Shown piece by piece: positions 41,502 through 56,332 of a DNA stretch of 64,000 nucleotides. The DNA is from Streptomyces sp. NBC_01267. GTDB lineage: Bacteria > Actinomycetota > Actinomycetes > Streptomycetales > Streptomycetaceae. The stretch is taken from the NCBI RefSeq assembly GCF_036241575.1, contig NZ_CP108455.1, forward strand, positions 6,927,001 to 6,991,000, read 5' to 3'. The notes beneath the pieces were generated by a model that saw only the letters and a list, made by a program, of their open reading frames with translations, did no database searches and had not been told where the DNA came from. Position 1 is the stretch's first letter, and every line of letters begins with the position of its first letter. Position numbers and translations under genes: made by a program.

Positions 41502-42842
41502 ATGGCTGCTGTCTCACGGGGGACGATCCCCGGACCCCCGGCCGGAGAAGGGGGCCGGAGCGGTGTGCCGACGCTCGGCGTCGGCATGGTCGGATACGCG
41601 TTCATGGGCGCCGCCCACTCCCAGGGGTGGCGCACCGCGGGCCGGGTCTTCGACCTGCCGATGCGACCGGTCATGGCGGCGGTCTGCGGCCGGGACGCGA
41701 CCGCGGTACGGGCGGCGGCGGACCGGCACGGCTGGGCGGCGGCCGAGACCGACTGGCGGGACCTCGTCGCCCGCGACGACGTGCAGCTCGTCGACATCTG
41801 CACCCCCGGCGACAGCCACGCGGAGATCGCGACGGCGGCGCTGGCCGCGGGCAAGCACGTGCTGTGCGAGAAGCCGCTCGCCAATACGGTCGCCGAGGCG
41901 CAGGCCATGGTCCGGGCGGCCGAAATGGCGCGCCTGAACGGCCAGTTGGCGATGGTCGGCTTCAACTACCGGCGCGCTCCCGCCGTCGCGTACGGACGTC
42001 GGCTCGTCGCGGACGGACGGCTGGGCAGGCTGCGGCACGTACGCGTCAGCTACCTCCAGGACTGGCTCGTCGACCCGGAGTTCCCGCTGACCTGGCGGCT
42101 GAAGCGCGAGAGCGCCGGGTCGGGGGCGCTCGGTGATCTGGGCGCACACATCGTGGACCTGGCGCAGTACCTGGCGGGGGAGCGGCTGGCGGGCGTGTCG
42201 GCGCTGACCGAGACCTTCGTACGGGAGCGGCCCCTCCTCGACGGGGCCTCCAGCGGACTCTCCGGGGCCGGGGCCGGGGCCGGGGCCGGGAACGGGAAGG
42301 GGGCCGGGGCCGGGAACGGCACCGAGGCTGTCGGACGCGGTCCGGTCACCGTCGATGACGCGGCCGTGTTCACCGGACGGTTCGCCTCGGGTGCGCTCGT
42401 CACCTTCGAGGCGACCCGGATGGCGGCCGGACACAAGAACGCGCTGCGCATCGAACTCAACGGTGAGCGCGGCTCTCTCACCTTCGAACTGGAACGGCTC
42501 AACGAACTGCTCTTCCACGACCACACGGAACCGGCTGTCTCGGCAGGTTTCCGGCGGATCCTCGTCACCGAGCCGGACCATCCCTACATGGCCGCCTGGT
42601 GGCCGCCCGGCCACGCGATCGGCTACGAACACACCTTCGTCCACCAGGCCCGCGACCTGGTCGAGGCGATAGCCGCCGGGACCGACCCGTCGCCGTCCTT
42701 CGCCGACGGACTCCAGGTCCAGCGGGTGCTGGCGGCGGTGGAGGAGAGCGCGGCCAAGCGGGCCGTCTACACCCCCGTGAGCCCCGCGCCCGATCAGCCC
42801 GTGCCCGATCAGCTCGTGCCCGATCAGTCCGTACCGGAATAG
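41502..42842 (+). CDS. Gfo/Idh/MocA-family oxidoreductase
   Basis: 446 residues. The Rossmann start is [17 protein letters not shown], the catalytic lysine motif is [15 protein letters not shown], and [14 protein letters not shown] and [19 protein letters not shown] are typical. These NAD(P)-dependent enzymes oxidise sugar, cyclitol or glycoside hydroxyls, often at C3. A glycine/alanine-rich insertion from repeated GGGGCC units (42264-42320) separates strands of the C-terminal domain, and the C-terminus carries a PDQ-x-VP repeat. It lies 10 bases from the TIM-barrel gene and 63 from the binding protein gene, so it belongs to the uptake operon. Confidence 0.92.
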
Positions 42843-43979: not shown

Positions 43980-44133
43980 TGACTTCGTTGCCGCGCAAGG
44001 GGTATCCGCCCCGGACGAACGCGGCTACCGTCCTTGAGGTGTACAGGACATGAATGAGGGCTCCGGAGTGACGGCGCACACCGGCAGCCACGGCCACCCA
44101 CCCGTAGAACCGGTTCGTACCCGGAGGACACAC

Positions 44134-47100
44134 GTGCACAGAAAACGGCTCAGAGCCCGGAAAGTACTCGCACTCCTCACCGGCGCACTGCTCACCGCGG
44201 CAACGCTCACCCTCACCGCCCCGAACGGCGCCTCGGCTGCCGACCCCGACACCCGCGTCGCACCGGCGGCCGAGGACTTCCAGCAGGTCACCCTGGCCAA
44301 GGGCGGGGAAGAGACCGGCGAACCCATGTCCCTCGCCGTGCTCCCCGACCGGAGCGTGCTGCACACCGCACGCAGCGGCGAACTACGGATCACCGACGCC
44401 GCGGGCAACACCCGGATCTCCGGCACCCTCCCCGTCTACAACCACGACGAGGAAGGACTCCAGGGCGTCGGCATCGACCCCGGATTCACCGAGAACCGCT
44501 TCATCTACCTCTACTACGCGCCCCCGCTGGACACCCCGGCCGGCGACGCGCCCGACAACGGCACCGCGGCCGACTTCGCGAAGTTCGACGGCGTGAACCG
44601 GCTCTCCCGTTTCGTACTGAAGACGGACGGCACCCTCGACAGCGCCAGCGAGAAGAAGATCCTCGACGTCCCGACCAGCCGCGGCATCTGCTGCCACGTC
44701 GGCGGTGACATCGACTTCGACGCCCAGGGAAACCTGTACCTCTCGACCGGTGACGACTCGAACCCCTTCGCCTCCGACGGCTTCACCCCCATCGACGAGC
44801 GGCCCGACCGCAACCCGGCGTACGACGCACGGCGCTCCGCGGGCAACACCAACGACCTGCGGGGCAAGATCCTCCGGATCAAGGTCGAGGACGACGCGTC
44901 GTACTCGATCCCGGACGGGAACCTCTTCCCCGTGGGCACGGACAAGACCCGCCCGGAGATCTACGCCATGGGCTTCCGCAACCCCTTCCGGTTCAGCGTC
45001 GACAAGGCCACCGGCATCGTGTACGTCGGTGACTACGGGCCCGACGCGGGCGCCGCCGACCCGAAGCGCGGTCCGGCCGGACAGGTCGAGTTCGCCCGGG
45101 TCACCAAGGCGGGGAACTTCGGCTGGCCGTTCTGCACCGGCAAGAACGACCCCTATGTCGACTACGACTTCGCGACCGGCACCTCGGGTGCCACCTTCGA
45201 CTGCGCGGCCCCGAAGAACACCTCGCCGCACAACACCGGACTGACCGACCTGCCGCCCGCGCAGGAGGCCTGGATCCCGTACGACGGCGGGTCCGTGCCC
45301 GAGTTCGGCGACGGCTCCGAGTCCCCGATGGGCGGGCCCGTCTACCACTACGACGCGAACCTCGACTCGCCGGTCAAATTCCCGCAGGCCTACGACGGCG
45401 ACTTCTTCGCCGGTGAGTTCGGCCGCCGCTGGATCAAGCGCATCACTTCGTCCGACGACGGCACCGTCCAGTCCATCAACCCCATTCCGTGGACCGGCAC
45501 CCAGGTGATGGACATGGCCTTCGGGCCGGACGGCGCGCTGTACGTCCTCGACTACGGAACCTCCTGGTTCGGCGGGGACGAGAACACCGGGCTCTACCGC
45601 ATCGAGAACGCCACCGGCGGCCACTCGCCCGTCGCCGAGGCATCGGCGAGCAAGACCTCCGGCACGGCGCCGCTGCGCACCACCTTCTCCTCGGCGGGCA
45701 CCACCGACGCCGACGGCGACGCCCTCACCTACAGCTGGGACTTCGGCGACGGCGGCACCTCCACCGAGGCCGATCCCACCCACACGTACAAACAGAACGG
45801 CACCTACACCGCCACCGTCACCGCCGAGGACCCCACCGGGCGCACCGGTTCGGCGAGCGCCCACGTCACGGTCGGCAACACCGCGCCGAAGGTGACGCTG
45901 GACCTGCCCGGTGACGGGCAGCTGTTCACCTTCGGCGACGAGGTCCCGTTCAAGGTGACCGTCACCGACCCGGAGGACGGCGCGATCGACTGCGCCAAGG
46001 TCGAGGTGCGGTTCATCCTGGGCCACGACAGCCACGGCCACCCCATCACCACCGCCAACGGCTGCTCCGGCACCATCAAGACCGCGATCGACGGCGGGCA
46101 CGACCCCAACGCCAATGTGTTCGGGGTCATCGACGCCTCGTACACCGACGGCGGGGGCGGCGGCCAGGCCGCGCTCACCGGCCACGACCAGGCCCAGCTC
46201 CAGCCCAGGCACCGGCAGGCGGAGCACTTCACCGGCTCCTCCGGCATCACGATCCAGGAGAAGGCCGGTGCCGAGGGCGGCAAGACGGTCGGTGACATCC
46301 AGAACGGCGACTGGATCTCCTTCAAGCCGTACATCCTGGACGGCTCCACCAAGCTCACCGCGAGAATCGCCTCCGGCGGCTCGGGCGGCTTCCTCGAAGT
46401 ACGGACCGGCTCGGCCACGGGGCAACTGCTCGGCTCCGCACCGGTCCCGGTGACCGGCAGCTGGGACACCTTCCAGGACATCGACGTACCGCTGCGCGGC
46501 GTACCGAAGAAGGCCACCGAACTCTTCCTGGTCTTCAAGGGCGGCGACGGGGCGCTCTACGACGTCGACGACTTCGAGATCTCCAGCACCCCGGTGGACC
46601 GGACGGCCAAACGGGTCCTGGTCTTCTCCAAGACCGCCGGGTTCCGCCACGACGCCATCCCCGACGGCATCGCGGCGCTCAAGGAACTCGGCAAGGGCAG
46701 CAACATCACCGTCGACGCGACCGAGGAGGCCGGCCAGTTCACCACCAGCAACCTCGCCCGCTACGACGCGGTGGTCTTCCTCTCCACCACCGGTGACGTC
46801 CTCGACGCCGACCAGCAGAAGGCGTTCGAGAACTACATCACCACCGGCGGCGGCTACCTGGGCGTGCACGCCGCGGCCGACACCGAGTACGACTGGCCGT
46901 TCTACGGCGGGCTCGTGGGCGCCTACTTCGACTCGCACCCGCAGATCCAGCCGGTGACGGTACGCGTCGAGGACCGCACCAACCCGGCGACCGCGCACCT
47001 CGGTGACAGCTGGGAGCGCACCGACGAGCTGTACAACTACCGCACCAACCCGCGCAAGCAGACCCACGTCCTGGCCACCCTGGACGAGACCACCTACACC

Positions 47101-47838
47101 GGCGGCACCATGAAGGGCGATCACCCGATCGCCTGGTGCCAGACCTACCAGGGCGGGCGGTCCTTCTACACCGGGCTCGGCCACACCAAGGAGTCCTACG
47201 CCGACCCGGCCTTCCGCCAGCACCTCCTCGGCGGACTGCGCTACGCCGCAGGGCAGGTCAAGGCGGACTGCAAGCCGGAATCCGGCTACCGCACGATCTT
47301 CAACGGCAAGACCCTGGACGGCTGGAAGCAGGCGGGGCCGGGGAAGTTCGACGTCGTCGACGGTGAACTGCGCTCCGACGGTGGCATGGGGCTCCTCACC
47401 TACCAGGCGAAGGAACTCGGCTCCTACTCGCTGAAACTCGACTGGAAGATGACCGGCGACGACAACTCGGGTGTCTTCGTGGGCTTCCCCGAGTCCGACG
47501 ACCCCTGGTCGGCCGTCGACAACGGCTACGAGGTGCAGATCGACGCCACCGACGCCCCCGACCGCACCACCGGAGCCGTCTACACGTTCAAGTCGGCGGA
47601 CCTGAAGGCCCGTGACCGGGTGCTCAGGCCGCCCGGCCAGTGGAACACCTACGAGATCCGGGTGGCGGGGGAGCGGCTCACCGTCTTCCTCAACGGGGTG
47701 AAGATCAACGACTTCACCAACACCGACCCGGCGCGCAGCCTGAAGGACGGCTACATCGGCATCCAGAACCACAGCTCCGACGACCACGTGTCCTTCCGGG
47801 ACATCCAGCTCAAGGAGCTGCCGCCGCCGGTGGCGTGA
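44134..47838 (+). CDS. Secreted multidomain sugar dehydrogenase - PKD - CBM6-like - ThuA - DUF1080 protein
   Basis: 1234 residues from GTG 44134, six bases after GGAGG; a longer frame to 44050 would bury the signal peptide (LLTGALLTAATLTLTAPNGASA). Domains by residue: quinoprotein glucose/sorbosone-dehydrogenase propeller 35-490 (YNHDEEGLQGVGIDPGF, GFRNPFRFSVD); PKD 495-585 (YSWDFGDGGTSTEADPTHTY); a beta domain to about 680; CBM6-like 690-825 (GDWISFKPYILDG, YDVDDFEI); ThuA amidotransferase-like 830-1045 (KRVLVFSKTAGFRHDAIPDG, GGGYLGVHAAAD, RSFYTGLGHTKESY); DUF1080 1050-1234 (FNGKTLDGWKQAG, NSGVFVGFPE, NGYEVQID). ThuA and DUF1080 families are linked to 3-keto-glycoside breakdown. It sits between the sugar-uptake operon and the Ebo operon. 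Confidence 0.93.
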   Translation: MHRKRLRARKVLALLTGALLTAATLTLTAPNGASAADPDTRVAPAAEDFQQVTLAKGGEETGEPMSLAVLPDRSVLHTARSGELRITDAAGNTRISGTLPVYNHDEEGLQGVGIDPGFTENRFIYLYYAPPLDTPAGDAPDNGTAADFAKFDGVNRLSRFVLKTDGTLDSASEKKILDVPTSRGICCHVGGDIDFDAQGNLYLSTGDDSNPFASDGFTPIDERPDRNPAYDARRSAGNTNDLRGKILRIKVEDDASYSIPDGNLFPVGTDKTRPEIYAMGFRNPFRFSVDKATGIVYVGDYGPDAGAADPKRGPAGQVEFARVTKAGNFGWPFCTGKNDPYVDYDFATGTSGATFDCAAPKNTSPHNTGLTDLPPAQEAWIPYDGGSVPEFGDGSESPMGGPVYHYDANLDSPVKFPQAYDGDFFAGEFGRRWIKRITSSDDGTVQSINPIPWTGTQVMDMAFGPDGALYVLDYGTSWFGGDENTGLYRIENATGGHSPVAEASASKTSGTAPLRTTFSSAGTTDADGDALTYSWDFGDGGTSTEADPTHTYKQNGTYTATVTAEDPTGRTGSASAHVTVGNTAPKVTLDLPGDGQLFTFGDEVPFKVTVTDPEDGAIDCAKVEVRFILGHDSHGHPITTANGCSGTIKTAIDGGHDPNANVFGVIDASYTDGGGGGQAALTGHDQAQLQPRHRQAEHFTGSSGITIQEKAGAEGGKTVGDIQNGDWISFKPYILDGSTKLTARIASGGSGGFLEVRTGSATGQLLGSAPVPVTGSWDTFQDIDVPLRGVPKKATELFLVFKGGDGALYDVDDFEISSTPVDRTAKRVLVFSKTAGFRHDAIPDGIAALKELGKGSNITVDATEEAGQFTTSNLARYDAVVFLSTTGDVLDADQQKAFENYITTGGGYLGVHAAADTEYDWPFYGGLVGAYFDSHPQIQPVTVRVEDRTNPATAHLGDSWERTDELYNYRTNPRKQTHVLATLDETTYTGGTMKGDHPIAWCQTYQGGRSFYTGLGHTKESYADPAFRQHLLGGLRYAAGQVKADCKPESGYRTIFNGKTLDGWKQAGPGKFDVVDGELRSDGGMGLLTYQAKELGSYSLKLDWKMTGDDNSGVFVGFPESDDPWSAVDNGYEVQIDATDAPDRTTGAVYTFKSADLKARDRVLRPPGQWNTYEIRVAGERLTVFLNGVKINDFTNTDPARSLKDGYIGIQNHSSDDHVSFRDIQLKELPPPVA

Positions 47839-47925: not shown

Positions 47926-49194
47926 GTGACAGCACGGCCCGCACGCACCGGAGTCTGGTTCATCGGAGCACGTGGCTCAGTGGCCACCACCGCGGTAGCG
48001 GGGTGTGCGGCGGTCACCGCAGGGCTCCACCCGGCGACCGGGATGGTCACCGAGACACCGCCGTTCGTCCCGGCGGGGCTTCCGCCGCTCGCCTCCCTGG
48101 TCTTCGGCGGGCACGACACGGCTAGCTGCCCGCTGCCGAAGCGGGCCGAGGCGCTGGCCGAGGGAGGGGTACTGCCGCACGGGCTGCCGTCGGCCGTGCG
48201 CAGTGAACTGGCCGCCGCGGACCGGGAGATCAGGCCCGGCGGCCCGCTCCCCGGTGACACCCGCACCGACGAGGAACTCGTCACCGCCTTCGCCGCCGAC
48301 CTCACGGCCTTCGTGCGGAGCCAGGACCTGGCCCGCGCGGTGGTCGTCAACGTGTCCTCCACCGAACCGGCCCCCGGTCCGGACGATCCCCGCCTGCCCG
48401 CCAGCTCCCTCTACGCGGCGGCTGCCCTCCGGGCCGGTTGCCCGTACGTCAACTTCACCCCGTCCACCGGCCTGCGCACCCCGGCCCTGGCGGTCGCCGC
48501 CGGAGCGAGCGGACTGCCGTACGCGGGGCGCGACGGGAAGACCGGCCAGACCCTGCTCCGCTCGGTCCTGGCACCGATGTTCGCCCAGCGCGCGCTGTCC
48601 GTACGCGCCTGGTCGGGCAGCAATCTCCTCGGCGGCGGCGACGGCGCGGCCCTCGCCGATCCGGCTGCCGCCGCCGCGAAGAACGCGGGCAAGGAACGGG
48701 TCCTCACGGACACCCTGGGCGCGGCCCCCGAGGGGGAGGTGCACATCGACGACGTGCCCGTGCTCGGCGACTGGAAGACGGCCTGGGACCACATCGCCTT
48801 CGACGGTTTCCTCGGCACCCGCATGGTCCTCCAGACGATCTGGCAGGGCTGCGACTCGGCACTCGCGGCGCCGCTGGTGCTGGACCTGGCCCGGCTGGTG
48901 GCCCGCGCCCACGAGGCGGGCCTCTCCGGGCCGCTGCCCGCACTCGGCTTCTACTTCAAGGATCCCGACGGGGGTCCGGCCGCCCTCTCCGAGCAGTACG
49001 GGCGACTCCTTGCCTTTGCCGAGCGGCTCGGGGAGGGCCCGCTCGCGGAGCAACCGCTCGGTGAGGACTCGCTCGGTGAGGATCCCCTCGTGGAGCAAGC
49101 GCTCGTGGAGCAACCGCTCGGGGGCGACCGACTGCCTGCTGACCGGGTGTCTGCCGGTCACCTGTCTGCCGATGGTGCGCGGGAAGGCCGGTGA
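47926..49194 (+). CDS. Myo-inositol-phosphate synthase-family protein (Ebo-cluster sugar phosphate cyclase slot)
   Basis: 422 residues from GTG 47926 with GGGAGG upstream. Family landmarks: dinucleotide site GVWFIGARGSVATTAVAG, NVSSTEPAP, YVNFTPSTGLRTPAL, the lysine motif GRDGKTGQTLLRSVLAP, and VLGDWKTAWDHIAFDGFLG with the aligned GDxK lysine. These enzymes cyclise glucose 6-phosphate to inositol phosphate through an NAD redox cycle. The last ~55 residues are low-complexity acidic repeats (GEDSLGEDPLVEQALVEQ) encoded by degenerate 15-18-base repeats at 49030-49160. It overlaps the UbiA gene by GTGA. Known Ebo clusters have a dehydroquinate-synthase-like cyclase (EboD) instead. Confidence 0.9.
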   Translation: MTARPARTGVWFIGARGSVATTAVAGCAAVTAGLHPATGMVTETPPFVPAGLPPLASLVFGGHDTASCPLPKRAEALAEGGVLPHGLPSAVRSELAAADREIRPGGPLPGDTRTDEELVTAFAADLTAFVRSQDLARAVVVNVSSTEPAPGPDDPRLPASSLYAAAALRAGCPYVNFTPSTGLRTPALAVAAGASGLPYAGRDGKTGQTLLRSVLAPMFAQRALSVRAWSGSNLLGGGDGAALADPAAAAAKNAGKERVLTDTLGAAPEGEVHIDDVPVLGDWKTAWDHIAFDGFLGTRMVLQTIWQGCDSALAAPLVLDLARLVARAHEAGLSGPLPALGFYFKDPDGGPAALSEQYGRLLAFAERLGEGPLAEQPLGEDSLGEDPLVEQALVEQPLGGDRLPADRVSAGHLSADGAREGR

Positions 49195-50120
49195 AGCCGG
49201 GCGCCTGGGCCGAACTGCTGCGGATCTCGGCCCTGTTCACGGTCCCCGGCGACGCCCTGGCCGGAGCCGCGGCGGCAGGGCTGCGTCCCGGCCGTGGCAC
49301 GGCGTACGCCGTCGGGGCCTCGCTCTGCCTGTACGAGGCGGGGATGGCACTCAACGACTGGGCGGACCGTGCGGAGGACGCCATCGACCGTCCGCACCGC
49401 CCGATCCCCTCGGGTCGCGTCACGCCGCGGGCGGCGCTGGCGACGGCGGGCGCCCTGACCGCGGCGGGCCTGGCCCTGTCCGCCCGTGCGGGCCGCCCCG
49501 CGCTGGCTGTGGCCACGGCGCTCGCGGGAACGGTCTGGGCCTACGACCTGAAGCTGAAGCACACACCGGCGGGTCCCGCGGCCATGGCGGCGGCCCGAGC
49601 GCTGGACCTGATGCTGGGCGCGACGGCGACGGGTCGGGCGGGTCCGGCGCGCCCGGGGGAGGGCCACGGCACCCGCCGGGCGCGTCACGCCTGGGGGGCG
49701 GCTGCGCTGCTCGCCACGCACACCTACGCCGTGACCTCGGTGTCCCGGCACGAGACACACGGCGGCTCGACGGCCGTGCCGATCGCCGCGCTGGCAGCCA
49801 CGGCGGCGCTGGGCTGCGCTGCGGTACGGAGCGGAGGCACCTCGGCTCCGACCGCCACCGCCACCGCCTCGGCCGTCACCGCCGCAGCCTCGGCCGTCAC
49901 CGCCGCCGGATATCTCGGCACCGCCGCCAAGCCCTACCTCCACGCCGCCCTCAACCCCTCCCCGGCGCTCACCCAGCAGGCGGTGGGCGGCGGCATCCGG
50001 GCCATGATCCCGCTCCAGTCAGCCCTCGCCGCCAGGGCAGGCGCCCCCGGCACCGCTGCGGCCCTGCTCGCCCTCGCCCCGCTCGCCCGCACCCTCGCAC
50101 GGAAGGTGAGCCCCACATGA
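49191..50120 (+). CDS. eboC: EboC-like UbiA-family prenyltransferase
   Basis: 309 residues, start GTG 49191 overlapping the previous stop. UbiA integral membrane prenyltransferases transfer a polyprenyl chain to an aromatic, sugar or other acceptor. The first aspartate motif is intact (ALNDWADRAEDAIDRPHRP, followed by IPSGRVTP). The second half has YDLKLKHTPAGPAAMAAARALDLMLGA, the characteristic segment of the EboC branch. An alanine-rich loop (ATATASAVTAAASAVTAAG) and about eight or nine hydrophobic helices follow. It is flanked by Ebo genes in a fully overlapping operon. Confidence 0.9.
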   Translation: MKPGAWAELLRISALFTVPGDALAGAAAAGLRPGRGTAYAVGASLCLYEAGMALNDWADRAEDAIDRPHRPIPSGRVTPRAALATAGALTAAGLALSARAGRPALAVATALAGTVWAYDLKLKHTPAGPAAMAAARALDLMLGATATGRAGPARPGEGHGTRRARHAWGAAALLATHTYAVTSVSRHETHGGSTAVPIAALAATAALGCAAVRSGGTSAPTATATASAVTAAASAVTAAGYLGTAAKPYLHAALNPSPALTQQAVGGGIRAMIPLQSALAARAGAPGTAAALLALAPLARTLARKVSPT

Positions 50121-51097
50121 GCCTCCGCCTCGGATACGGCACCAACGGCCTCACCGACCTGCGGATCGACGACGCACTGGGCCTCCTCGCCGATCTCGGC
50201 TACGACGGCGTCGGGCTGACTCTCGACCACATGCACCTCGACCCCGTCGCCCCCGGTCTCGGTGTCCGCACCCGGCAGTTGGCGCGCACCCTCGATCGGC
50301 TCGGTCTGGGCGTCACCGTCGAGACCGGCGCCCGCTACGTACTCGATCCGCGACGCAAACACGGTCCGTCCCTCCTCGAACCGGACCCGGACGACCGTGC
50401 CGTCCGGGTCCGGATGCTGGTACGGGCCGTGCAGGTCGCCGCCGACCTGGGCGCCCACGCCGTGCACTGCTTCAGCGGGACCCTGCCGCCCGGGACCGGC
50501 CGGGACGCGGCATGGCAGCGCCTCGCTCAGGCGCTCACCCCCGTCCTGGACGCCGCGCGCTCCGCCGGCGTACCGCTCGCCGTCGAACCCGAACCAGGCC
50601 ATCTCCTCTCCTGTCTCGCCGACTTCCATCACCTCCGCCGCATCCTCGGCGACCCGGAACCCCTCGGGCTCACCCTCGACATCGGACACTGTCAGTGTCT
50701 GGAACCGGCTCCGCCCGCCGACTGCGTCCGCGAAGCCGGCCCCTGGCTGCGGCACATCCAGATCGAGGACATGCGCCGAGGCGTCCACGAACACCTTCCG
50801 TTCGGCGAGGGCGAGATCGACTTCCCGCCCGTGCTCGAAGCGATCGCCGACTCCGGCTACCAGGGCCTGACCGTCGTCGAACTGCCCCGCCACTCCCACG
50901 CGGGCCCCGAACTGGCCCGTACCTCCCTGGACTTCCTCCGTGCGGCCCGGCCACAGGCACCGGCCCGGACGCAGGCAAAGCCACAGACGCAGGCAAAGCC
51001 ACAGACACAGGCAAAGCCACAGACACAGGCCCGGACACAGGGCCAGCCACAAACGCAGGCGCGCCCGCGGGGCCGGAAGGAGATCCCCACATGCTGA
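50117..51097 (+). CDS. Xylose-isomerase-like TIM barrel of the Ebo operon
   Basis: 326 residues; its ATG overlaps the UbiA stop (ATGA). The AP2Ec-type barrel has metal/substrate acids in PLAVEPEPGHLLSCL, LTLDIGHCQCLE, HIQIEDMRRGVHEHLPFGEGEIDFPPVL and VVELPRHSHAGPEL. The C-terminal ~50 residues (QAKPQT repeats) are encoded by an 18-bp tandem array and lie beyond the barrel. It overlaps eboA by 7 bases. Activity is unknown; isomerisation or epimerisation of a sugar or cyclitol phosphate would fit the neighbours. Confidence 0.9.
   Translation: MSLRLGYGTNGLTDLRIDDALGLLADLGYDGVGLTLDHMHLDPVAPGLGVRTRQLARTLDRLGLGVTVETGARYVLDPRRKHGPSLLEPDPDDRAVRVRMLVRAVQVAADLGAHAVHCFSGTLPPGTGRDAAWQRLAQALTPVLDAARSAGVPLAVEPEPGHLLSCLADFHHLRRILGDPEPLGLTLDIGHCQCLEPAPPADCVREAGPWLRHIQIEDMRRGVHEHLPFGEGEIDFPPVLEAIADSGYQGLTVVELPRHSHAGPELARTSLDFLRAARPQAPARTQAKPQTQAKPQTQAKPQTQARTQGQPQTQARPRGRKEIPTC
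50971..51024 (+). repeat. 18-bp in-frame tandem repeat x3
   Basis: GCAGGCAAAGCCACAGAC-type units repeat three times, with degenerate units to about 51057. They encode QAKPQT hexapeptides at the C-terminus of the TIM-barrel protein. Confidence 0.9.
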
Positions 51098-51702
51098 CGA
51101 CGCCCCTGATGACCCCTCTGATGACCCGCCAGGATCTGCTCGCACAGCTCTCCCCGGCATCCGGTGCCTGGCTGGGCGGGGCCGTTGCCGATGCCGAACA
51201 GCGCACGGCGGAATGGGAGGTGGGATTCGCCGCAGCAGGGCGCGCGTGCGGACCTGAGCACGCCGACGCCGTACGCGTCCTCCTCCTCACCGCGGCCCGC
51301 ACCGACCCCGCCACCCTCACCCGCCTCTACCAGCAGGGCTCGGCAGCCGAACGCCGCGCCGTACTCCTCGCCCTGCCGTACCTCGGCCTCGCACCCGGCG
51401 ACGGAACCCCACTGATCCAGGACGCGCTGCGCGCCAACGACACCCGGCTGGTCGCCGCGGCCGTCGGTCCGTACGCCACCGCCCACCTGGACCCGCACGC
51501 CTGGCGGCACGCCGTACTCAAGTGCCTCTTCACCGGGGTCCCCGTGAGCGCCGTGCACGGCCTGGACAGCCGCGCCCGTGGTGACGCCGAACTGGCCCGC
51601 ATGCTCGCCGACTACGCCGCCGAGCGCGCCGCAGCGGGCCGCGACATCCCCGTGGATCTCCACCGCGCACTGGCCCTGACCGCAGAGGAGCAGCAGATCT
51701 GA
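51091..51702 (+). CDS. eboA: EboA domain protein
   Basis: 203 residues, ATG 51091 seven bases after GAAGGAG and inside the end of the TIM-barrel gene. The sequence is all-helical, with the recognisable EboA segments EWEVGFAAAGRACGPEHADAVRVLLLTAA, ERRAVLLALPYLGL, LIQDALRANDTRLVAAAVGPYATAHLD and WRHAVLKCLFTGVPVSAVHGLDSRA. EboA has no known enzymatic activity; HEAT-like helical repeats suggest a scaffold. It is the diagnostic gene for the Ebo locus. It overlaps eboB by one base (TGATG). Confidence 0.88.
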   Translation: MLTTPLMTPLMTRQDLLAQLSPASGAWLGGAVADAEQRTAEWEVGFAAAGRACGPEHADAVRVLLLTAARTDPATLTRLYQQGSAAERRAVLLALPYLGLAPGDGTPLIQDALRANDTRLVAAAVGPYATAHLDPHAWRHAVLKCLFTGVPVSAVHGLDSRARGDAELARMLADYAAERAAAGRDIPVDLHRALALTAEEQQI

Positions 51703-52571
51703 TGCGTATCTTCGACCCCCACATCCATATGACCTCCCGCACCACCGACGACTACCAGGCCATGCACGAAGCAGGCGTACGCGCCCTGGTGGAACCCGCC
51801 TTCTGGCTGGGCCAGCCCCGCACGGCGCCGGAGAGCTTCTACGACTACTTCGACGCGCTCATCGGCTGGGAGCCCTTCCGCGCCGCGCAGTACGGCATCG
51901 CCCACCACTGCACGATCGCCCTCAACCCCAAAGAGGCCAACGACCCCCGCTGCACCCCGGTCCTCGACGAACTGCCCCGCTATCTCCGCAAGGACCAGGT
52001 CGTCGCCGTCGGTGAGATCGGCTACGACTCCATGACACCCGCCGAGGACACCGCGCTCGCCGCCCAGCTCCAACTGGCCGCCGACCACGGGCTCCCCGCC
52101 CTGGTCCACACCCCGCACCGCGACAAACTCGCGGGCCTGCACCGCACCATCGACGTCGTCCATGAATCGGACCTTCCCCCGGACCGTGTCCTGCTGGATC
52201 ACCTCAATGAGACGACCGTAGAGGACGCCACTGACAGCGGCTGCTGGCTCGGCTTCTCGATCTACCCCGACACCAAGATGGACGAGGACCGGATGGTCAG
52301 CGTCCTGCAGACCTACGGAACCGGGAAGATCCTGGTCAACTCGGCGGCGGACTGGGGAAAGAGCGACCCGCTCACCACCCGCCGGGTTGCCGTGGCCATG
52401 CTGAAGGCGGGCTTCACCGAGGACGACGTCGACGAGGTCCTGTGGCGGAACCCGGTCGCGTTCTACGGCCTCAGCGGCCGTCTCCAGCTCGATGTCCCCG
52501 ACGCCGCGGGCGCACCGGCCACGCACGAGGGCAACTCCGTCCTCCGCGGCGCCCCGAGGACCGGGGACTGA
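51702..52571 (+). CDS. eboB: EboB, TatD-family metal-dependent hydrolase
   Basis: 289 residues from ATG 51702. The TatD barrel ligands are visible: HxH in FDPHIHMTSRTTDDY, glutamate in VAVGEIGYDSMT, histidine in LVHTPHRDK, histidine in VLLDHLNE and aspartate in VNSAADWGKSDP. TatD proteins are nucleases or amidohydrolase-like hydrolases; the Ebo branch has been linked to metabolite movement rather than DNA. It follows eboA with 1-base overlap and precedes eboE by 3 bases. Confidence 0.92.
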   Translation: MRIFDPHIHMTSRTTDDYQAMHEAGVRALVEPAFWLGQPRTAPESFYDYFDALIGWEPFRAAQYGIAHHCTIALNPKEANDPRCTPVLDELPRYLRKDQVVAVGEIGYDSMTPAEDTALAAQLQLAADHGLPALVHTPHRDKLAGLHRTIDVVHESDLPPDRVLLDHLNETTVEDATDSGCWLGFSIYPDTKMDEDRMVSVLQTYGTGKILVNSAADWGKSDPLTTRRVAVAMLKAGFTEDDVDEVLWRNPVAFYGLSGRLQLDVPDAAGAPATHEGNSVLRGAPRTGD

Positions 52572-52574
52572 GCC

Positions 52575-53795
52575 ATGCGCTTCCGGCACCCCGACGGCTC
52601 GACCGTCCACCTCTCGTACTGCACCAACGTCCACCCCGCCGAGACCCTCGCCGGGGTCCGGGACCAGCTCCGTGACCACTGCGAGCCCGTACGCAGACGC
52701 CTCGGCCGGGACAGGCTGGGCATCGGACTGTGGCTCGCCAGGGACGCCGCCCGCGCCCTGACCACCGACCCGTCGGCGCTGCGCGGCCTGCGCGCCGAAC
52801 TGGACCGGCGCGGCCTCGAAGTAGTGACGCTCAACGGCTTCCCGTACGAGGGATTCGGCGCGGACGAGGTCAAGTACCGGGTGTACCGACCGGACTGGAC
52901 CGACCCCGAACGCCTCGCCCACACCACGGACCTGGCCCGGCTGCTCGCCGCGCTGCTCCCCGACGACGTGCGCCAGGGGTCGGTGTCCACCCTGCCGCTC
53001 GCCTGGCGGACCGCCTACGACGAGACCGCGGCCCGGCAGGCCCACACCGCGCTGACCACGCTCGCCGGGCGCCTCGACGCACTGGAGGAACTGACCGGCA
53101 AGTCGGTCCTGATCGCCCTGGAGCCCGAACCCGGCTGCGCCGTGGAGACCACGTCCGACGCGATTGGCCCGCTCGCCGCGGTGGCCTCGGAATCGGGCTC
53201 GCACCGTATCGGCATCTGCGTCGACACCTGCCATCTCGCCACCTCCTTCGAAGACCCGAGAACCGCGCTCGACGCCCTCGCGCAGGCGCGGATCCCCATC
53301 CCCAAGGCCCAGCTCTCCGCAGCCCTGCACGCCGAACACCCGCATCTCCCCGAGGTGCGCGCCGCCCTCGCGGCCTTCGCCGAACCGCGCTTCCTGCACC
53401 AGACCCGGGCCCTCAGCACGGCCCACGGCAGGAGCGGGGCGGGAGACAGCTGGTCCGCCGCGCGGCTGCACGGCACCGACGACCTGGGTGAGGCGCTGGC
53501 CGGAGGGGCGCTGCCGGACACCACCCCGTGGCGCGCCCACTTCCACGTGCCGCTGCACGCCCCACCGGCGCCCCCACTCACCTCCACCCTCCCCGTTCTC
53601 CAGGACGCCCTGACCCGGCTCGTCGGCGGACCGGTGCCCCGTACCCACCACCTGGAGGTGGAGACGTACACCTGGCAGGCGCTGCCGCCCGAGCTGCGCC
53701 CCCGCAACCGCGCCCAGCTCGCGGACGGCATCGCGGCCGAACTCACCCTCGCCCGAGACCTCCTGACGGACCTCGGACTCAAGGAGCTGCCGTGA
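52575..53795 (+). CDS. eboE: EboE, xylose-isomerase-like metabolite traffic protein
   Basis: 406 residues from ATG 52575. The opening HLSYCTNVHPAETLAGVRDQL is characteristic of EboE. The TIM barrel core includes VVTLNGFPYEGFGADEVKY, VLIALEPEPGCAVETTSDAI and IGICVDTCHLATSFEDPRTAL, which supply the usual acids and histidine. The C-terminal section contains the HFHVPLHAPPAPPL and HHLEVETYTWQALP motifs. EboE proteins are named metabolite traffic proteins from cyanobacterial work. It overlaps eboF by GTGA. Confidence 0.92.
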   Translation: MRFRHPDGSTVHLSYCTNVHPAETLAGVRDQLRDHCEPVRRRLGRDRLGIGLWLARDAARALTTDPSALRGLRAELDRRGLEVVTLNGFPYEGFGADEVKYRVYRPDWTDPERLAHTTDLARLLAALLPDDVRQGSVSTLPLAWRTAYDETAARQAHTALTTLAGRLDALEELTGKSVLIALEPEPGCAVETTSDAIGPLAAVASESGSHRIGICVDTCHLATSFEDPRTALDALAQARIPIPKAQLSAALHAEHPHLPEVRAALAAFAEPRFLHQTRALSTAHGRSGAGDSWSAARLHGTDDLGEALAGGALPDTTPWRAHFHVPLHAPPAPPLTSTLPVLQDALTRLVGGPVPRTHHLEVETYTWQALPPELRPRNRAQLADGIAAELTLARDLLTDLGLKELP

Positions 53796-55171
53796 CCGGA
53801 CCGAACCCCCTGCTCGTGCTGGACGTCGTGGGCCTCACCCCCCGGCTGCTCGACCACATGCCGCGCCTGAAGTCCCTCGCCGCTGCCGGTTCGCAGGCGC
53901 CGCTGTCCACCGTCCTGCCGGCCGTCACCTGCGCCGCCCAGTCCACCTTCCTCACCGGCACCACCCCCGCCGAACACGGCATCGTCGCCAACGGCTGGTA
54001 CTTCCGCGAACTCGGCGAAGTCCTCCTGTGGCGCCAGCACAACGGGCTCGTCGAAGGGGACCGGATCTGGGACGCGGCGCGCCGCGCCCACCCCGGCTAC
54101 ACCGTCGCCAACATCTGCTGGTGGTACGCGATGGGCGCCGACACCGACTTCACCGTCACCCCCCGCCCCGTCTACTACGCGGACGGCCGCAAGGAACCCG
54201 ACTGCTACACCCGGCCCCCGTCCCTCCACGACGAACTGACCGAGAAACTCGGCACGTTCCCCCTGTTCCACTTCTGGGGACCGGGCGCGGACATCGTCTC
54301 GTCCCGCTGGATCGTCGACGCGACCCGCCACCTCCTCGCCACCCGCCACCCCGACCTCGCCCTCAGCTACCTCCCCCACCTCGACTACGACCTCCAGCGC
54401 TACGGACCCGACGACCCCCGCGCGCACCGGGCGGCGGCGGACCTCGACCGGGTCCTCGCCCCGCTCGTCGACGACGCGCGCGCCGAGGGCCGGACCGTCG
54501 TCGCGCTCTCCGAGTACGGCATCACCCGCGTCAGCCGCCCCGTCGACATCAACCGGGCGCTGCGCCGCGCCGGACTCGTCGAGGTCCACACCCAGGACGG
54601 CATGGAGTACCTCGACCCGATGACGTCCCGGGCCTTCGCCGTCGCCGACCACCAGGTCGCGCACGTCTACGTACGCCGCCCGGAGGACCTCGAAGCCACC
54701 CGCGAAGTCCTCCAGGACCTCGAAGGAATCGGCCAGCTCCTCGACGACGAGGGCAAGAAGAGCCACGGCCTGGACCATCCGCGTTCCGGGGAACTGGTGG
54801 CCGTGGCCGAGCCCGACGCCTGGTTCACGTACTACTACTGGCTCGACGACGCGCGCGCCCCCGACTTCGCACAGCTCGTGGAGATCCACCGCAAGCCGGG
54901 GTACGACCCGGTCGAGCTGTTCATGGACCCGCTCGACCCCTACGTCAGGCTCAAGGCGGCCAAGGCACTGGCGCGCAAGAAGCTCGGCATGCGCTACCGC
55001 ATGGCCGTCGTACCGCTCGATCCCTCACCGGTCCGCGGCAGTCACGGCCGCCTCCCCGCGAGCGACGACGAGGGTCCGCTCATCCTCTGCTCCACCCCCG
55101 ACGCGGTCCGCGGCCGGGTCGCGGCGACCGAGGTGAAGTCGCTTCTCCTGCGGCTCGCCGGACTGCACTGA
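53792..55171 (+). CDS. eboF: EboF-like alkaline-phosphatase-superfamily protein with altered metal ligands
   Basis: 459 residues from GTG 53792 overlapping eboE. It is a nucleotide-pyrophosphatase/phosphodiesterase fold: first ligand aspartate in LLVLDVVGLTPRLLD, threonine nucleophile in LPAVTCAAQSTFLTGTTP, AEHGIVANGWYFRE, and the C-terminal GSHGRLPASDDEGP histidine. Two canonical ligand clusters are changed: the usual D-x(3)-H reads HLDYDLQRYGP (His to Gln by alignment to the family pattern), and the usual SDHG reads LSEYGI (Asp to Glu, His to Tyr). I believe this is shared by the Ebo branch, but I cannot verify it here. It is the last gene of the overlapping run. Confidence 0.88.
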   Translation: MTGPNPLLVLDVVGLTPRLLDHMPRLKSLAAAGSQAPLSTVLPAVTCAAQSTFLTGTTPAEHGIVANGWYFRELGEVLLWRQHNGLVEGDRIWDAARRAHPGYTVANICWWYAMGADTDFTVTPRPVYYADGRKEPDCYTRPPSLHDELTEKLGTFPLFHFWGPGADIVSSRWIVDATRHLLATRHPDLALSYLPHLDYDLQRYGPDDPRAHRAAADLDRVLAPLVDDARAEGRTVVALSEYGITRVSRPVDINRALRRAGLVEVHTQDGMEYLDPMTSRAFAVADHQVAHVYVRRPEDLEATREVLQDLEGIGQLLDDEGKKSHGLDHPRSGELVAVAEPDAWFTYYYWLDDARAPDFAQLVEIHRKPGYDPVELFMDPLDPYVRLKAAKALARKKLGMRYRMAVVPLDPSPVRGSHGRLPASDDEGPLILCSTPDAVRGRVAATEVKSLLLRLAGLH

Positions 55172-55237: not shown

Positions 55238-56332
55238 ATGAGCCGTCATTCCGCAGCCACCGACCCCGACCTCGTCCACAGGCTCAGCCGGCGCAACATG
55301 CTCGGTGTCACCGCGGGGGCCGGCGCTGCCGCCCTCCTCGGACTCTCCGCGACCCCGGCCGCAGCCGGTGCCAAGGGGCACCAGCAGGGGCAGCTCCACG
55401 GCGACCACCCCGGACACGGCGACACGCACGGCAGAACCGGACCGGTCCTGACCCCCGGGCGCCTCGGCATCCAGCTCTACTCGCTGCGCGACAAGATCGC
55501 GGAGATCGGCTTCGCCAAGGTCTTCGACGAGCTGGAGCGCTTCGGCTACGACGAGATCGAGTACGCCGGGTACACCCAGGGCACCGGGGCGATCACCCCG
55601 TCCCAGTTGCACCGGATCGCCCGCGACCACGGTCTGAACGGCATCGGCAGTCACGTCAACTACTACGACGACAACAACCCCGGCGCCTACAGCTTCGCGC
55701 AGAACCTCGACAAGGTCCTCGACGACGCCCAGACGCTCGGCCTCAAGCACATCGGGACCGCGTCGGGCCCGTTCCGCTACGGATCCACCGTCGACGCCTG
55801 GAAGCGGGCCGCGGCGGACTTCAACACCTACGGCGCCGCGGCGAGGAAGCGCGGCATGAAGTTCTACCAGCACAACCACGGCGACGAGTTCTCGTTCGCC
55901 ACCGATCAGCCCGACGTCCGCCTCTACGACGTGCTCCTCGCCGAGACCGACCCGCATCTGGTCTACCTGGAGATGGACATCTACTGGGCGTTCACCGGCC
56001 AGTTCCGGTTCAGCAGGACCGCCGAGGGGAAGCCCGCCCCCTTCGAGCCGCTCGACTACGTACTGAAGCAGCCCGACCGCTACCCGCTCTTCCACGTCAA
56101 GGACGGTGTCCACGACGAAGCCGCCCGCGACGGCTACGACATGACCGATGTCGGGGACGGGGACATCGACTACAAGACCTTCATCTCGGCGGTGAACCGC
56201 ACGCACGGCGGTCGCCGCAGCCACCACTGGCAGGTGGAGCACGATCAGCCGGTGGACTCCTTCGCCTTCGCCCGCAAGTCGGCGGCGCATCTGCACGGGC
56301 TCCGCGAGGAGGCTCACCGGGGCCGGAACTGA
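55238..56332 (+). CDS. Tat-exported xylose-isomerase-like TIM barrel
   Basis: 364 residues. The twin-arginine signal HRLSRRNMLGVTAGAGAAAL is preceded by a 15-residue head. A histidine-rich linker (HQQGQLHGDHPGHGDTHG) leads into an AP2Ec-type barrel: LGIQLYSLRDKIAEIG, FYQHNHGDEFS, YLEMDIYWAFTGQ, FHVKDGVHDE, HWQVEHDQPVDSFAFA. It is exported to the cell surface, unlike the other three barrels in this block, which have no signal. It lies 66 bases after eboF and ahead of a strong terminator, so it may be the last gene of the transcript. A role on extracellular sugars or keto-sugars fits the multidomain secreted protein upstream. Confidence 0.9.
   Translation: MSRHSAATDPDLVHRLSRRNMLGVTAGAGAAALLGLSATPAAAGAKGHQQGQLHGDHPGHGDTHGRTGPVLTPGRLGIQLYSLRDKIAEIGFAKVFDELERFGYDEIEYAGYTQGTGAITPSQLHRIARDHGLNGIGSHVNYYDDNNPGAYSFAQNLDKVLDDAQTLGLKHIGTASGPFRYGSTVDAWKRAAADFNTYGAAARKRGMKFYQHNHGDEFSFATDQPDVRLYDVLLAETDPHLVYLEMDIYWAFTGQFRFSRTAEGKPAPFEPLDYVLKQPDRYPLFHVKDGVHDEAARDGYDMTDVGDGDIDYKTFISAVNRTHGGRRSHHWQVEHDQPVDSFAFARKSAAHLHGLREEAHRGRN

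Follow-up and report, generated by a model that had tools for sequence, protein, structure and literature searches.

Which ring-forming enzyme feeds an ebo gene cluster that carries no EboD, and what might such a cluster make? The question is posed by a seven-gene operon in a 64,000-nucleotide stretch of the genome of Streptomyces sp. NBC_01267 (G000:C1:6927001-6991000 of the 8.07 Mb source genome), referred to in full as the window. An earlier note, made from the letters of the window, had described an ebo cluster opened by a protein of the myo-inositol-phosphate synthase (MIPS, Ino1) family in place of EboD, with an extra TIM barrel inserted. We tentatively favour, at somewhat less than even chances, the view that this is a form of the ebo system with a pair of proteins, an Ino1-like cyclase and the TIM barrel, instead of EboD, and that it would make a prenylated, inositol-derived cyclitol. 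The gene content, the co-conservation, the conservation of active sites and the lack of EboD across the searched genomes are fixed by the evidence, and the chemistry is predicted from sequence. For the papers cited below, parts of the text were covered, and what we draw from them refers to those parts.

The seven genes and the cyclase

The operon consists of seven plus-strand open reading frames (ORFs) between 47926 and 55171. All are present at the position and on the strand given earlier, and the overlaps described for them are borne out as well (junctions in order: -4, -4, -7, -1, +3 and -4 bases). Start codons are those of the earlier note; for the cyclase, a simple codon-bias caller favours 47980 over 47926.

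47926..49194, plus strand: Ino1-like cyclase (myo-inositol-phosphate-synthase family) of an ebo-linked clade (PF07994, PF01658)
49191..50120, plus strand: UbiA-superfamily prenyltransferase, EboC-related (SCO3242 family; NF045897)
50117..51097, plus strand: xylose-isomerase-like TIM barrel that co-occurs with Ino1, with a repetitive C-terminal tail (PF01261)
51091..51702, plus strand: EboA-domain protein, predicted all-helical (NF035938)
51702..52571, plus strand: EboB, TatD-like metal-dependent hydrolase (PF01026, identity to canonical EboB)
52575..53795, plus strand: EboE, TIM-barrel protein (NF035939)
53792..55171, plus strand: EboF-like type I phosphodiesterase/phosphatase (PF01663, identity to canonical EboF)

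The repetitive tails of the Ino1-like protein (49000-49194) and the TIM protein (50960-51097) lie outside the Pfam matches. A 100% match to EboE comes from Streptomyces sp. A 4/2 (locus L005).

That the operon is related to ebo is upheld by curated models and by the identity of EboB and EboF to canonical loci. EboE scores 416 bits with NF035939 (cut-off 250) and EboA 162 bits with the EboA domain model NF035938 (cut-off 50), so that both can be assigned, EboA by its domain; with the stricter EboA_family model NF035937 it reaches 63 bits, below the cut-off of 320. EboB matches TatD (PF01026, 48.7 bits, cut-off 27) and EboF the phosphodiesterase family PF01663 (229 bits, cut-off 23). Compared with six canonical plasmid loci (Azospirillum, Mycetohabitans, Deinococcus, Aureibacter, Ketogulonicigenium and Salipiger), EboB is 38-57% identical over 266-297 residues, EboF 43-57% and EboE 29-39%; EboA is 32-39% identical over 114-149 residues in five of the six loci and finds no match in the Deinococcus one. 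The EboF residues D198, Q202, E241, Y242 and H329 are kept in at least 93% of 113 actinobacterial rows and in 7/7 others, and Q202, E241 and Y242, which are unusual among phosphodiesterases, are common to actinobacterial and canonical rows.

The prenyltransferase scores 389 bits with NF045897 (cut-off 260), the NCBIfam "SCO3242 family prenyltransferase" model that is named after the Streptomyces coelicolor protein. Its residues Y48, N55, D56, D59, D63 and R136 are conserved in at least 93% of 110 actinobacterial rows, in 7/7 others and in three haloarchaeal rows. Matched by motif, with no alignment between the two proteins, Y48 and R136 resemble Y56 and R145 of an EboC homologue that farnesylated 8-hydroxyquinoline-2-carboxylate in vitro (PMC9235831).

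The cyclase matches both MIPS domains (PF07994, 107.6 bits, cut-off 25; PF01658, 101.7 bits, cut-off 27), and its closest solved structure in a sequence search is the MIPS of Archaeoglobus fulgidus (1u1i, 3.6e-56). K252, K256, K284, K345, D203, N233, D239 and D310, whose roles we take to be catalytic as in MIPS, are kept in more than 95% of 171 aligned sequences and match the residues of 1u1i at a constant offset of 22. The window enzyme thus has its family and these residues in common with the archaeal one, but it is tied to ebo genes and a TIM barrel. Since housekeeping and YcaO-type Ino1 carry the same eight letters, MIPS-like chemistry can be predicted, while the exact product cannot be distinguished by them.

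The cyclase is not the housekeeping Ino1. With TIGR03450, the equivalog model of the housekeeping mycothiol Ino1, it reaches 31.9 bits, far below the cut-off of 638; a second Ino1 lies elsewhere in the source genome (C1:3967803-3968132); and the two kinds are distant in a tree. In this 77-row tree (built from alternate survey Ino1 sequences of suitable length and a selection of others, and rooted by midpoint only), 59 actinobacterial ebo-type rows, four of them strong Ino1 matches not near EboE, fall on one side of a branch with support 100/98. Haloarchaeal rows adjoin this clade (support 94/92), and a branch of length 6.65 leads to the five housekeeping rows.

Distribution of Ino1, EboE, EboD and the TIM barrel

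EboE above its cut-off occurs in 54 of 150 family genomes, 90 of 394 class genomes (94 places) and 13 of 296 phylum genomes, and strong matches to the window Ino1 (E <1e-70) occur in 84 of the 394 Actinomycetes class genomes, at 88 places. The co-conservation that the earlier note had made a test of its reading is evident: EboE is found in 84/84 strong-Ino1 genomes and strong Ino1 in 84 of the 90 EboE genomes (six are without it), and 82 of 88 strong places lie within 9 kb of EboE, as against 0/35 weaker matches. The co-occurrence count leaves out eight genomes with below-cut-off EboE only and the second fragments of split Ino1 matches. With at most four candidates scored per genome for EboE and Ino1 (six for the TIM barrel and EboD), weaker matches are under-counted; the housekeeping Ino1 of the source genome, for example, is missing from the Ino1 search. 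Among the six strong places away from EboE, one (L230, genome G232) has ebo genes at a contig end, and three (in G125, G220 and G348) look like contig breaks.

A survey of which cyclase actinobacterial ebo loci carry, as the earlier note had suggested, covered 120 EboE regions (116 of the 129 places above the cut-off, plus four partial matches), of which 103 have Ino1, none has EboD and three are cut by contig ends, meaning less than 6 kb of contig upstream of EboE. Among the closest genome loci (the best 80 of at least 510 confirmed), 64 have Ino1, and the remaining 16 have less than 6 kb of contig upstream of EboE. No EboD was found on the same strand within 9 kb of EboE in either set (0/120 and 0/80). 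An Azospirillum EboD query reached at best 135 bits in 296 genomes including the source genome, with up to six candidates scored per genome; with five other EboDs it reaches 345-427 bits, as scored by a different program. The source genome has one dehydroquinate synthase above the cut-off. The Ubi-297 paper, however, places ebo genes in the actinobacterium Saccharomonospora and lists EboD among eboA-E, which may be a counter-example to the absence of EboD. Ino1 is the sole cyclase seen in our survey beside actinobacterial ebo genes, and it comes first in the common gene orders. Far from being confined to the window, this layout recurs across actinobacteria and, in part, in haloarchaea.

The TIM barrel (PF01261, AP_endonuc_2, 150 bits, cut-off 31) follows the cyclase closely. 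It is present in 87 of 394 class genomes (E <=1e-35; one second fragment of a split match, in G040, is omitted), and 87/87 have an ebo-type or intermediate Ino1. Conversely, it is found in 84/84 genomes with ebo-type Ino1 and in 5/7 with intermediate Ino1; 84 of 93 TIM places lie within 9 kb of an Ino1 place, and in four of six fetched regions (L221-L224, by tblastn) it shares the same 20 kb with the intermediate Ino1. Plasmids of Hymenobacter and Roseomonas group Ino1, a Gfo/Idh/MocA protein, YcaO and the TIM barrel, with no ebo gene detected. As the TIM barrel tracks Ino1 also where there are no ebo genes, the two form a pair of their own, and the cyclase swap is one of a two-gene module. 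This contradicts the view that the TIM barrel is a separate insertion; the ebo relation, the Ino1-like cyclase and the co-conservation stand.

The TIM residues E157, D188 and E255 are kept in 109/109 rows and Q215 in 106/109, and an AlphaFold model of moderate confidence (mean pLDDT 77.9) resembles ketose 3-epimerases. In 13 of 185 loci having both on one strand, the TIM barrel and EboA form a single ORF. These fit the actinobacterial TIM-EboA fusions reported in PMC5133447, which unite the same two domains that are neighbours in the window; operon and cyclase are not mentioned for them in the text seen. As a separate observation, the ebo-free cluster of Ino1, Gfo/Idh/MocA, YcaO and the same TIM family also contains a PIG-L deacetylase (L219:7779-16480 and L220:7629-16738). 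YcaO was seen in L219 and L220 only, and L221-L224 were seen to contain Ino1 and the TIM barrel only.

Outside actinobacteria, 16 plasmid records have EboE, of which seven were fetched. All six that are annotated have an EboD annotated as 3-dehydroquinate synthase. The seventh, from Gemmatirosa, has Ino1, TIM barrel, UbiA, EboF, EboB, EboE (on the opposite strand) and a weak EboG match (59 bits). Haloarchaeal plasmid matches number five, of which four were fetched. Plasmids of Natronococcus, Halocatena and Halobaculum carry Ino1 (44-46% identical to that of the window), UbiA, two TIM paralogues, EboB (40-43%) and an EboF-like gene (37-39%); the Natronococcus locus also has a GSDH-type dehydrogenase with a plastocyanin-like end. 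The Ino1 of Halomarina BND7 has glycosyltransferase neighbours instead of ebo-type genes.

A possible pathway and its rivals

If the operon makes a prenylated cyclitol, Ino1 would first cyclise glucose 6-phosphate to an inositol phosphate, as predicted from its intact active-site residues. The TIM barrel, as a putative metal-dependent enzyme of ketose-epimerase type, could then act on the ketone form of the cyclitol, a role suggested by its strict co-occurrence with Ino1. EboF, EboB or both may remove or rearrange a phosphate or ester, and UbiA would add the prenyl chain, yielding a prenylated cyclitol that resides in the membrane. EboA, judging by its model, would be a helical scaffold. On the outer side of the membrane, the product might support secreted enzymes or a metabolite that is exported, a role like that of the canonical ebo genes for the monomer of scytonemin. 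Neighbouring genes and, by analogy, Nostoc mutants (PMC6282210) suggest a transport or redox role there.

Some neighbours speak for parts of this route. All neighbour counts here refer to the 6 kb around the 103 Ino1-bearing operons, in which related loci are counted repeatedly; genes were taken from a simple caller trained on this operon, and one representative per cluster was scanned with Pfam. A polyprenyl synthetase cluster lies near 12 of the 103 operons, within 300 bp in eight cases and on the same strand in seven of these; together with the conserved UbiA motifs, this favours real prenylation. The farnesylation by the EboC homologue in vitro speaks for it as well. Two regions without Ino1, L181 and L183, adjoin an inositol monophosphatase, which we count for the inositol route. 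They are second ebo copies in two Streptomyces genomes and also lie near a P450 gene (neighbours identified by Pfam for L181 and by tblastn for L183). L181 has an amine-oxidase-like gene as well. Also counted for the route is L114, a region lacking both Ino1 and the TIM barrel, which adjoins a Gfo/Idh/MocA dehydrogenase, another TIM barrel and a sugar importer.

Several observations weigh against the favoured reading. The polyprenyl synthetase cluster is absent within 6 kb of 91 of the 103 operons. UbiA scores 119.7 bits with the EboC model NF035940, below the cut-off of 250, so that of the name EboC given to it earlier only the kinship remains; and the assayed EboC homologue reportedly favours aromatic acceptors, namely quinoline derivatives (PMC9235831). 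In the three haloarchaeal loci, no EboA and no full EboE were detectable, and in two of them position 202 of the EboF-like protein is L instead of Q. At G083:C10 and G276:C11, strong Ino1 genes adjoin GSDH/ThuA-type genes with no ebo genes detected. Four of the 120 regions (L114, L165, L181 and L183) have other ebo genes and upstream sequence yet no Ino1, and in ten more EboE or a partial EboE-like gene stands alone, which indicates that EboE has other roles.

A further point of this kind concerns the notion of replacement. The cyclase is Ino1-like, not EboD, as the earlier note had it. The ring made by MIPS keeps its phosphate group. In EboD-type sugar phosphate cyclases the phosphate is lost (PMC5133447). 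A functional replacement therefore cannot mean the same product, and the two products need not be analogous.

Some of these exceptional loci have neighbours worth recording. At L102, L131, L134 and L145, EboE is above its cut-off with no other ebo genes; at L131 it adjoins a sugar ABC importer, thiamine-pyrophosphate-dependent E1 subunits, a zinc dehydrogenase, a glyoxalase and an M24 peptidase, and the neighbours at the other three are similar in size to these. On the Streptomyces plasmid of L213, a lone eboE adjoins type II polyketide synthase genes; the L003 plasmid, with a similar polyketide synthase row, has the full operon.

Two unlikely alternatives deserve serious attention, and we give them equal weight. 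In the first, the cyclase, although of the MIPS family, makes some other cyclitol, and the operon encodes a pathway of specialised metabolism whose product has no relation to inositol. This would agree with the presence, among the cyclase matches, of PDB 6k96 (E 2.9e-11), deposited as a five-membered-cyclitol-phosphate synthase, with the distance of the ebo-type clade from housekeeping Ino1 (the branch of 6.65) and with single operons that adjoin type II polyketide synthase (L003) or nonribosomal peptide synthetase genes (L004). The eight active-site positions, however, match the much closer A. fulgidus MIPS, even if letters cannot separate products.

In the second, also doubtful, ebo is a transport or processing module, and Ino1 and the TIM barrel are sugar-metabolism genes that joined it in actinobacteria and feed a neighbouring keto-sugar pathway, not UbiA. 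Sugar-related neighbours are indeed frequent: GSDH/ThuA-type proteins near 60 of the 103 operons (67 together with the seven that have a ScyE-type NHL protein), TIM barrels near 42, several with twin-arginine-like N-termini, another TIM group near 31, ABC ATPases near 20, ROK regulators near 16 and Gfo/Idh/MocA proteins near eight. The two strong Ino1 genes beside GSDH/ThuA-type genes and away from ebo genes (L231 and L232) fit as well. So do the genes upstream in the window, which encode a sugar-binding protein, a Gfo/Idh/MocA oxidoreductase (41565-42842) and a TIM barrel that matches S. coelicolor SCO6571 (2zds, 2e-210) and a 2-hydroxy-3-keto-glucal hydratase (6.3e-36). Two further neighbours of the operon, outside its core, belong to the frequent groups:

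44050..47838, plus strand: large protein with GSDH, PKD, CBM6, ThuA and 3-keto-disaccharide-hydrolase domains (Pfam); its cluster has a member near 60 of the 103 loci
55238..56332, plus strand: TIM barrel with a twin-arginine-like N-terminus, judged by eye (PF01261); its cluster has a member near 42 of the 103 loci

These sugar neighbours, however, differ in place and presence, while Ino1 stands first in the common operon orders, and haloarchaea keep Ino1 and TIM barrels with UbiA, EboB and EboF despite having neither EboA nor a full EboE. The GSDH group lies on either side of the operon and in both orientations, so that more than one inherited layout is involved; the source genome itself has four GSDH matches. 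On two Streptomyces plasmids, ScyD/ScyE-family and multicopper oxidase genes adjoin the operon. A 2Fe-2S protein gene at L214:16469-16792 is labelled tetracycline resistance in the plasmid table, a label that is probably spurious.

We consider it quite improbable that a second Ino1 merely boosts inositol for ordinary lipids or mycothiol: the MIPS residues are intact, as this would require, but another Ino1 is present in the genome (C1:3967803), the window protein falls far short of the mycothiol model, and none of the 35 weaker Ino1 matches lies near EboE. Chance adjacency of an unrelated cyclase, for which we found nothing, is refuted by the 103 of 120 EboE regions that carry Ino1 beside ebo genes and by the 82 of 88 strong places within 9 kb of EboE; that the actinobacterial set is one clade also speaks against it.

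Relation to known ebo systems and meaning

In cyanobacteria, ebo is linked to ScyE. A ScyE-type propeller gene lies near canonical ebo genes in places; here such a gene is near 7 of 103 loci. With the canonical eboABCDEF cluster (PMC5133447, PMC6282210) the window operon shares the EboA domain, EboB, a UbiA protein, EboE, EboF and the compact layout, and it differs in having Ino1 and the TIM barrel instead of EboD and a UbiA below the EboC cut-off, and in being the form found in actinobacteria. The idea of a prenylated cyclitol for ebo originates in PMC5133447, in whose main text the word "inositol" occurs 0 times. In S. coelicolor, SCO3242 is described as a putative transferase and SCO3243 as a myo-inositol phosphate synthase (PMC3610822); both are assigned there to the CDA antibiotic cluster, and a link to ebo is not mentioned in the text seen. 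Searches of the open-access PMC literature yielded no paper that links Ino1 with ebo, or ebo with archaea; subscription papers and preprints lie outside this scope, so that novelty is unproven. We presume that SCO3237-3243 are the same seven genes as the window operon.

A broader and more speculative view, which we think somewhat less likely than either of the two serious alternatives, is that ebo systems share a core of UbiA, EboB and EboF with exchangeable ring modules (EboD or Ino1 with the TIM barrel) and span bacteria and haloarchaea. Such systems would make a prenylated cyclitol, or a quinol formed from one independently of chorismate, and this compound would be the cofactor in the membrane on which secreted sugar dehydrogenases, ScyE-type proteins and copper oxidases depend. 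The "export" phenotype of Nostoc would then be one of its consequences.

The ebo cluster occurs in several bacterial phyla and in some algal plastids, and no product was found named in the literature covered. In this variant the opening enzyme is of a well-understood family, which provides a concrete starting substrate in an easily manipulated genus, and the two-gene swap separates the ring-dependent steps of the pathway from the others. The haloarchaeal loci, if confirmed, extend the ebo system across domains. For S. coelicolor, the comparison suggests that part of the genes listed with the CDA cluster may be a separate module.

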